A DNA stretch of 64,000 nucleotides from Thioalbus denitrificans (GTDB taxonomy: Bacteria > Pseudomonadota > Gammaproteobacteria > DSM-26407), in NCBI RefSeq assembly GCF_003337735.1, contig NZ_QPJY01000003.1, positions 1 through 64,000 of the forward strand, given 5' to 3'. Within the stretch, counting starts at the first letter, position 1, and each line of letters starts with the position of its first letter. Position numbers and translations under genes: made by a program. Shown here piece by piece: positions 36,376-53,504 of this stretch. The notes beneath the pieces were generated by a model. The model worked only from the letters and a program-made list of their open reading frames with translations. It did not search any database and had not been told where the DNA came from.

Positions 36376-36433
36376 AAACCGGGGGGTAACACCCGGATGG
36401 ATAGGCGGGGTTAATGGTGGGGGCAAGGATCTA

Positions 36434-36531
36434 GTGTACTGCACCACTCTTGGAGGCACATTCAGCGAGTCGCCGGGCGGTCAGATCCAAGGCGCGCTTG
36501 CGCAGGAAGGGCAGGCGCCGCAACCGGCCGG
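36434..36531. repeat. GTGTACTG inverted-repeat element, left half (copy A)
   Basis: Begins GTGTACTG..CACTCTTGGAGGCACATTCAGCGAG and continues with GGCGCGCTTGCGCAGGAAGGGCAGG, as in copy C (52738). The right terminal repeat is missing, so this copy is truncated. It lies between sat and the NIF3-like gene, next to an octamer tract. Confidence 0.75.
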
Positions 36532-38736: not shown

Positions 38737-38824
38737 CGCTGAACGCCGGCGGCCATGGGCCCGCCCCGGCAGGCACACGCGCCACTGGACAGGACGACAA
38801 CCCCTAATTTAGTGTAACTGCATA

Positions 38825-38999
38825 GTGTACTGTGCCGCTCTTGGAGGCACATTCAGCGAGCCGCCCGGAGGGAGTCCCCCGAAAGCGCCAGGACAAGGCG
38901 CAGTGCGCAGGCAATGGTTGTTCCCTTGTCAAGCGCTGCGACGCCGTCATGGCGCTTTCGGGGGACTCTGAAAGCACCTCCAAGAGTGGCGCAGTACAC
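38825..38999. repeat. GTGTACTG inverted-repeat element, complete (copy B)
   Basis: 175 bp with 26-bp terminal inverted repeats differing at three positions (GTGTACTGtGCCgCTCTTGG at left, complement of GTGTACTGcGCCaCTCTTGG at right). An inner inverted pair AGTCCCCCGAAAGCGCCA and its complement is also present. It has no protein-coding capacity. It lies between degS and the methyltransferase gene. Confidence 0.88.
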
Positions 39000-39110
39000 C
39001 AGGTCGGCCCGGGCCCGGGGTCCTTTCCGAGCAGTCCCGCCGATCCGGACTGCGGCCGCGCGAGCGGCGCCGAACACGCCCCCCGGGCGAACCGTGAGAT
39101 CACCAAGCCG

Positions 39111-52132: not shown

Positions 52133-52738
52133 ATGCCCCGGTTCCCCATGCCCCGGTTCCCCCTGCCCCGCCTCAGCCCCACCACCGCAGGCCTTCTCGT
52201 CCTCGGCCTGCTCGCGGGGCTGAGCAGCCTGTTCGCCTATCGCTACGAACCCTGGTGGCCGACCCGGACGGACGTGCAGCGCCACGATCCCGACTACTGG
52301 TTCGAGGGCTTCTCCGCGGTGCGCATGAACCTCGAGGGGGTGCCCATCCAGCGCCTGACCGGCAAGCGCCTGCAGCACTATCCCGACGATGACAGCACGG
52401 AGCTGGAGACGGCCCGGCTGGTGCACTACCCCCAACAGGGTGCGCCCTGGGTGGTGACCGCCGAGCGGGCACGGGTCACCGAGGACGGCGCACTGGTGTT
52501 TCTCCCCGGGCAGGTCCTGGCCGAGCAGGCGCCCACCGCCGCCGATCCCGGCCTGACCCTGCGCACCCACGACCTGCGCGTCCTGGTGGAGCAGGAGTAC
52601 CTGGAGACCGACCGCGAGGTTTCCATCACCCGCGGGGGTGATATGATCAACGCAACCGGCATGCGGGCCTTCCTGCGGGAGGAGAGGCTGCTGCTACAGT
52701 CCAAGGTGAAGGCCACCCATGAACCGAACCGCCGTTAG
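52133..52738 (+). CDS. lptC: LptC, LPS transport membrane protein
   Basis: 201 residues. One N-terminal helix (about 19-37) and a periplasmic LptC/OstA-like beta-jellyroll (DVQRHDPDYWFEGFSAVRMN; DREVSITRGGDMINATGM). Links LptB2FG to LptA. Its last 20 bp overlap the lptA start; its stop TAG coincides with the left end of repeat element C. Confidence 0.93.
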   Translation: MPRFPMPRFPLPRLSPTTAGLLVLGLLAGLSSLFAYRYEPWWPTRTDVQRHDPDYWFEGFSAVRMNLEGVPIQRLTGKRLQHYPDDDSTELETARLVHYPQQGAPWVVTAERARVTEDGALVFLPGQVLAEQAPTAADPGLTLRTHDLRVLVEQEYLETDREVSITRGGDMINATGMRAFLREERLLLQSKVKATHEPNRR

Positions 52739-53504
52739 TGTACTGCTTCACTCTTGGAGGCACGTTCAGCGAGTTGCTGGCCGGTTAGCTGCAAGGCGCG
52801 CTCTCGCAGGAATGGCAGGGTCCTTTCAAGAGAGCGCAACGCCGCAGATGGCCGGCCAGCGGCTCGCCCGAAGGGAGCCCCCCGAAAGCACCATGACCGC
52901 GTTGCGGTGCTTGACAAGGACCGGGCCATTGCCTGCGCACCGCGCCTTGTCCTGGCACTTTCGGGGGGCTCTGAATGTACCGCCAAGAGTGAAGCAGTAC
53001 ACCAGTGTACTGCTGCTGCTCCTCGCCCTGCCGGGGGCGGCCCTGGCCCTGTCCGGCGACAGCGACAAGCCCATCAGCCTCGAGGCCGACCAGGCGGAGC
53101 TGAACGAGGCCACGGGCGTCAGCACCTATACCGGGCGGGTGGTCCTGACCCAGGGCAGCATCGAGCTGCACGCCGACCGGCTGGTGGTCCACGCCGCCGG
53201 CGGCGAGCTGTCCCAGATTACCGCCACCGGCAACCCGGTGCGTTTCCGCCAGCGCCCCGAGGGCCGGAACAAGGACGTGACCGCCGAGGCGAAGAAGCTG
53301 GAATACCAGGGCAAGAGCCGCATGCTGGTGCTCATCGGCGAGGCGAAGGTGACCCAGGGGCGCAATACGTTCAGCGGGCAGCGTATTGAATATGACCTGC
53401 AGCGCGAGTCGGTGCTGGCCACCGGCGGCAGCGGCGAGGGCGGCAAGCCGGGCCGGGTGCAGATGACCATCGTCCCCTCCAGGGGCGGCGACAGCAAGCA
53501 ATGA
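52719..53504 (+). CDS. lptA: LptA, periplasmic LPS-transport protein with a mobile-element insertion in its signal-peptide region
   Basis: The mature part (from about 53040) has the OstA/LptA fold: [58 protein letters not shown]. The ATG at 52719 overlaps lptC as usual and encodes [10 protein letters not shown], but 267 bp of repeat element C follow before [15 protein letters not shown] resumes. AGTGTACTG occurs at both junctions (52737 and 53004), so removing the insert restores a normal signal peptide. The insert is a multiple of three without stops, so a 261-residue product is possible. An in-frame GTG at 52989, inside the element's right terminal repeat, would give [16 protein letters not shown], a good signal peptide with a Lys and a normal 171-residue LptA. 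I think this internal start is used. Confidence 0.85.
52738..53002. repeat. GTGTACTG inverted-repeat element, complete (copy C), inside lptA
   Basis: 265 bp. The left end GTGTACTGCTTCACTCTTGG is matched by the complement of its right end for about 29 bp with three mismatches. Inside are two nested palindromes: GCTGGCCGG/CCGGCCAGC with GCGCTCTC/GAGAGCGC, and AGCCCCCCGAAAG with its complement near 52960. The second is shared with copy B, the first with copy A. Confidence 0.88.

Follow-up and report, generated by a model that had tools for sequence, protein, structure and literature searches.

A MITE in the signal-peptide codons of lptA, kept in frame in Thioalbus denitrificans and its sister species

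Introduction

How does a gene that is expected to be essential in its host carry a mobile element within the codons of its signal peptide, and from which start codon is it then translated? The question arises at the lptC-lptA overlap of Thioalbus denitrificans (GCF_003337735.1; genome G000, 4.14 Mb), where we analysed a window of 64,000 nucleotides (NZ_QPJY01000003.1, positions 1-64,000, forward strand). A preliminary description of the locus had proposed that a non-autonomous element was tolerated there because its right end rebuilt a complete signal peptide with a new start, and that lptA translation may have become unlinked from lptC. Here, we compare the locus and the element family with those of G001, the only relative of the same genus examined; both genomes are drafts.

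Results

The insert and its true edges

The lptC-lptA-lptB genes are intact, and their names were confirmed by matches to the profiles TIGR04409, TIGR03002, and TIGR04406. The lptA frame runs from the ATG at 52719 to 53504 without a stop codon, its product passes the curated cut-offs of TIGR03002 and PF03968, and the mature LptA protein is intact despite the insertion. The gene is single copy, with one profile match above cut-off in each of G000 and G001; a second, weaker LptA-profile match in each genome falls within a frame of 868-876 residues, presumably LptD. The features of the region are listed in Table 1.

Table 1. Features of the lptC-lptA region (positions in the window)
Feature	Position	Strand	Evidence
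lptC	52133..52738	+	TIGR04409, 135 bits; stop abuts the MITE, unchanged in G001
lptA open frame with in-frame insertion	52719..53504	+	TIGR03002, 148 bits, residues 110-253; sole LptA of the genome
Original ATG start	52719..52721	+	AAGGTGAAGG upstream; overlaps lptC by 20 nt; identical in G001
TA, left half of presumed 2-bp target duplication	52736..52737	.	First two bases of the lptC stop TAG (52736-52738)
MITE copy, 265 bp, terminal repeat to terminal repeat	52738..53002	+	About 20 full-length G000 paralogues; orthologue in G001
Left terminal inverted repeat (GTGTACTGCTTCACTCTTGG...), 32 nt	52738..52769	+	91% complementary to 52971-53002; kept across copies
Candidate TTG start, 40-residue signal peptide	52929..52931	+	AAGGA 8 nt upstream, -5.3 kcal/mol
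Right terminal inverted repeat	52971..53002	-	Complementarity to left repeat; copy alignment
5-codon mini-ORF ATG TAC CGC CAA GAG TGA (ATGTACCGCCAAGAGTGA)	52975..52992	+	GGGGGG upstream, -9.4 kcal/mol; stop overlaps GTG 52989 (GTGA)
Candidate GTG start in right terminal repeat	52989..52991	+	No Shine-Dalgarno pairing; paired in predicted stem
CA, right half of presumed target duplication; TA in most copies	53003..53004	.	Copy comparison
AGTGTACTGCT, end-like target sequence encoding start of hydrophobic core, outside the element	53004..53014	+	L003 empty site, neighbour count
Rest of hydrophobic core, ALA cleavage site, and mature LptA	53015..53504	+	Sequence, TIGR03002

As the preliminary description had reported, two copies of AGTGTACTG, at 52737 and 53004, lie 267 bp apart (start to start) in the signal-peptide codons, and the DNA between them is in frame and free of stops; removal of these 267 bp rejoins MNRTAVSV to the downstream signal-peptide residues, so that the insert falls between the n-region and the hydrophobic core (h-region) of the LptA leader. 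The reading of AGTGTACTG as a 9-bp target duplication that bounds the element was ruled out, since GTGTACTG lies within the element in almost every copy, with TA as the flanking repeat. The left AGTGTACTG is the element's own end, while the right one is an end-like target sequence; the CA that follows the right edge is presumably a mutated TA.

The copy in lptA has no separate gene of its own. Its family has the ends GTGTACTGC...GCAGTACAC, inserted at TA, usually within CTAG, and an interior that forms an imperfect palindrome with two inner hairpins. Full-length copies usually measure 266 bp end to end between TA dinucleotides, and most copies thus add 268 bp with the TA, as compared to 267 bp (89 codons) at lptA. 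The one-base gap that gives the lptA copy its length occupies a column common to another copy, L020, so the missing base need not be a repair, and a frame-restoring 1-nt deletion specific to lptA is unsupported. The lptA-phase frame is free of stops in 21 of 29 family copies. The open frame, real as an observation, is thus a property of the family and silent on translation or read-through, and an insertion that is both in frame and open was not a rare prospect. An Rfam search gave no match to the element, and a search for promoters and terminators found none borne by it, the sole promoter-like site lying upstream at 52620 in lptC.

A MITE family with an IS630-like target

The proposal of a non-autonomous mobile element holds, and the element belongs to a MITE family. 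A search of G000 returned 71 matches to the query region; among these are many partial copies and about 20 full-length paralogues, which share 83-90% identity with it, the best of them 85-90% over the full length. Internally deleted derivatives of about 86-190 bp retain both ends. There are 92 terminal-repeat sites with at most 2 mismatches, against 0 for a reversed-pattern control, and the repeat family is far beyond chance. Many copies are also present in G001, while L003 and L020 are missing at the matching G001 loci, which are empty sites. The element is thus short, lacks a transposase gene, and has terminal inverted repeats, dispersed copies, and empty sites, as expected of a MITE.

Across all 47 insertions, TA adjoins 34 left ends and 35 right ends, preceded by C or T and followed by G (C-TA...TA-G, a CTAG-like target). 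The TA duplication and the preference for CTAG are those of IS630-derived MITEs, and we file the element as a non-autonomous MITE with an IS630-like target. Profile searches of G000 and G001 found no DDE_3 transposase, and the IS630 model gave nothing above threshold, with two sub-threshold helix-turn-helix matches in frames that by eye are integrase-type and IS481-like. Neither these models nor single-ended sites revealed an autonomous partner, so that the link to IS630 comes from the target site.

Among the 369 genomes sampled from the class, only this genus had the family ends in high copy number. G015, G016, G022, and G026, which represent four other sampled gammaproteobacterial families, hold diverged cousins, some of which differ in their end sequences; at two loci of G026 (L065 and L070) cousin elements share an interior and differ in their terminal repeats (CTAGTGTCCTGTCTCCGAAGTT...), as if one core were carried on different ends. 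The window itself holds a left-half remnant at 36432-36515 and a short copy of about 180 bp at 38823-39001, adjoining a gene for a trypsin-like (DegP-type) protease. At one shared insertion site the copy is 266 bp long in G000 (L013) and 176 bp in G001 (L184), by internal deletion or in-place replacement.

Almost every copy examined lies between genes; the only clear in-frame insertion into a gene that was found is the one in lptA. The full-length copy L020 (G000 C2:782546-782812) frameshifts a gene resembling a small thioesterase, whose G001 counterpart (L120) is uninterrupted; such a difference would be expected if an essential gene retained only insertions that do no harm.

Target sequences that resemble the element's own ends

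The G001 element-free site that matches L003 reads CCTTAGTGTACTGCCCC and carries CCTTAGTGTACTGC, which means that the target itself bears an end-like motif. Such motifs (7-9 of 9 matches beside TA) accompany 10 of 47 distinct insertions (10 of 94 sides), compared with 1.3% of control TA sites (p = 6e-7). This suggests that the element targets its own ends or re-uses relic ends. End-like neighbours were seen, for example, at L005, L012, L172, L024, and L010, as well as at the G001 element-free site L121. Since both genomes carry the lptA insert, we infer that its empty site was GCCGTTAGTGTACTGCTGCTG, which encodes an uninterrupted leader, and that TAGTGTACTG was probably present at the target before the insertion; it could be the relic of an older copy.

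Age and conservation of the insertion

Comparison of the lptC-lptA junction in relatives, which had been proposed as a check, revealed the same insertion at the same base of G001, with the same length and frame and 4 differences in 270 positions. LptA proteins outside the genus have no insert, and their ordinary short leaders directly precede an LSxD-type mature start. The presence in a sister species shows that the insertion is old, predates the split, and is not an artefact. The divergence between G000 and G001 is 3.0-3.5% in kdsC, lptC, the remainder of lptA, and lptB.

The low divergence of the insert is not particular to lptA. Four other orthologous full-length copies show 9 differences in 1076 positions, as compared to 282 in 3986 in their flanks (p = 6e-20). 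For these pairs (L016/L173, L002/L188, L008/L189, and L004/L190) this amounts to 0.8%, against 7% for the 500-bp flanks, and paralogues are about 10% apart, so that neither recent spread to the same sites nor homogenisation accounts for it. The elements, even non-coding ones, seem to evolve more slowly than the DNA around them, a hint of a function or a mutational effect. The lptA copy, with 4 differences in 269 positions, is no more conserved than the non-coding orthologous copies, and its low divergence is therefore no evidence for translation or for a particular start; conservation as a proof of coding was rejected on this ground. A codon-position test is powerless here, with 4 substitutions of which 2 fall at codon position 3 and 2 change residues.

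Signal peptide and candidate starts

Read from the ATG at 52719, the protein is strongly hydrophobic only in the old core, at residues 97-106 (11-residue mean hydrophobicity 2.6, versus at most 0.83 in the first 80 residues). The 96 residues that precede it hold 15 K/R and 3 D/E. With such a long n-region, the precursor would be expected to enter the membrane in the manner of a type II protein, its tail left in the cytoplasm, with cleavage at ALA. Both species retain the start itself, its upstream AAGGTGAAGG, and the overlap of 20 nt with lptC without change, and the suggestion that lptA translation may have become unlinked from lptC finds no evidence here.

As had been claimed, the right end of the element and the host codons kept beside it are jointly able to specify a complete signal peptide, and GTG 52989 yields a textbook 20-residue leader. 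The proposed use of this GTG did not fare as well, since it is predicted to be paired within a 20-bp terminal stem and lacks Shine-Dalgarno pairing. The mini-ORF just upstream owes its ATG (52975) to a substitution that is private to the lptA copy and shared by G001; with its strong Shine-Dalgarno-like GGGGGG and GTGA overlap, it makes re-initiation at GTG 52989 conceivable. Stop-start overlaps of the GTGA type are known from coupled genes. The RNA of the region is predicted to be extremely structured (-204 kcal/mol, z -9).

Discussion

The explanation that we consider the most likely, by a modest preference, is that an IS630-like MITE inserted in the signal-peptide codons of lptA in an ancestor, and that translation still starts at the old ATG. 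A non-autonomous element entered the lptC-lptA overlap in a common ancestor of the two known species of the genus, landing between the n-region and the hydrophobic core. Its tolerance would stem from three properties: a length of 267 bp (89 codons) for element plus TA, an open frame, and a host right side with an intact core and AxA site. Translation from the old ATG would give a precursor with an arginine-rich 96-residue tail, which would stay cytoplasmic and be lost together with the signal peptide; initiation within the element would yield the same mature LptA. The insert is thus probably removed at cleavage whichever start is used, and an unchanged mature protein would be the main reason for its tolerance. 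In this modified form the idea that the leader accounts for the tolerance is sound, and a start newly supplied by the element is a plausible but somewhat less favoured reading. A point against the long leader is that an n-region of 96 residues greatly exceeds the length of normal signal peptides.

A start inside the element, at GTG 52989, TTG 52929, or ATG 52893 (signal peptides of 20, 40, and 52 residues), is a possibility to be taken seriously, although we somewhat favour the old start over the internal ones combined. The GTG would give a leader of almost ancestral length and is overlapped by the mini-ORF stop, the TTG has a well-spaced AAGGA, and the final 215 nt of the element with the signal-peptide codons are identical in both species (0 of 215 differences versus 32 of 1000, p = 0.004). 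The equal conservation of the non-coding orthologous copies removes the force of this last argument, and the GTG suffers from the missing pairing and the stem described above. It is improbable that the element lowers or breaks lptA expression, with survival on residual synthesis or with a dispensable lptA: the extreme RNA structure would fit such a loss, but the frame was retained in two species, lptC, lptA, and lptB are intact and all diverge by about 3%, and lptA is the only copy.

The ribosome could also bypass the folded element, taking off and landing on the matched AGT GTA CTG codons at its two ends, which lie exactly 267 nt apart and in frame and would be brought together by the terminal stem. 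Bypassing of inserts with matched codons is known from T4 gene 60 and yeast mitochondria (PMC5009743). If it occurred here, the ancestral signal peptide would be made from an interrupted gene, a bacterial counterpart of bypassed mobile inserts. We consider this very unlikely, because the open frame makes bypassing unnecessary, the known bypassed inserts are of about 50 nt or short blocks, and the choice of target explains the matched codons. Least credible of all is an assembly or contamination artefact, for which nothing speaks beyond the draft state of both genomes; it is refuted by G001, an independent assembly that has substitutions of its own and yet shows the same junctions.

The insertion is mostly an ordinary case of a known phenomenon, a known kind of event in an unusual place; the search terms that we used retrieved no literature on MITE insertions in signal peptides. 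In effect, nature has here tested the tolerance of a presumably essential gene to insertion, and the n/h boundary of a signal peptide may be a safe harbour for mobile DNA, where inserts would be discarded on export. An old start with a very long leader and a start supplied by the element can be directly told apart on the natural allele of the two species. The family is also worth following for its insertion beside sequences like its own ends and for its conservation well above that of its flanks.

The family resembles prokaryotic MITEs (PMC10969869) in its size below 300 bp, the lack of genes, the terminal inverted repeats, the short target duplication, the tens of copies, and the internally deleted derivatives; it departs from them in that no autonomous partner was found and in its imperfectly palindromic interior with two inner hairpins. 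Palindromic elements of Rickettsia (RPEs) are small repeats that lie in frame within protein genes and extend the product (PMC10969869). The likeness to them is one of anatomy alone, as RPEs are commonly intragenic, whereas our copies are mostly intergenic and the one in lptA sits in a cleavable leader. QMITE1 and QMITE2 of Coxiella burnetii are gammaproteobacterial MITEs of about 50 copies that overlap ORFs and are conserved between strains (PMC5896051); compared by description, their direct repeats are of variable sequence, while ours is TA in a CTAG-like site. IS630 prefers TA in CTAG (Tenzen and Ohtsubo 1991, as cited in PMC2170065), and IS630/Tc1/mariner elements such as ISY100 (PMC2170065) have the same TA duplication and C-TA...TA-G neighbourhood, a likeness from the target site alone, with no IS630 transposase detected in G000 or G001. 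Finally, insertion sequences that use palindromic repeats as targets (PMC1525189) resemble the family in that both kinds insert beside a repeated end-like sequence, with the difference that the target here resembles the element's own end.
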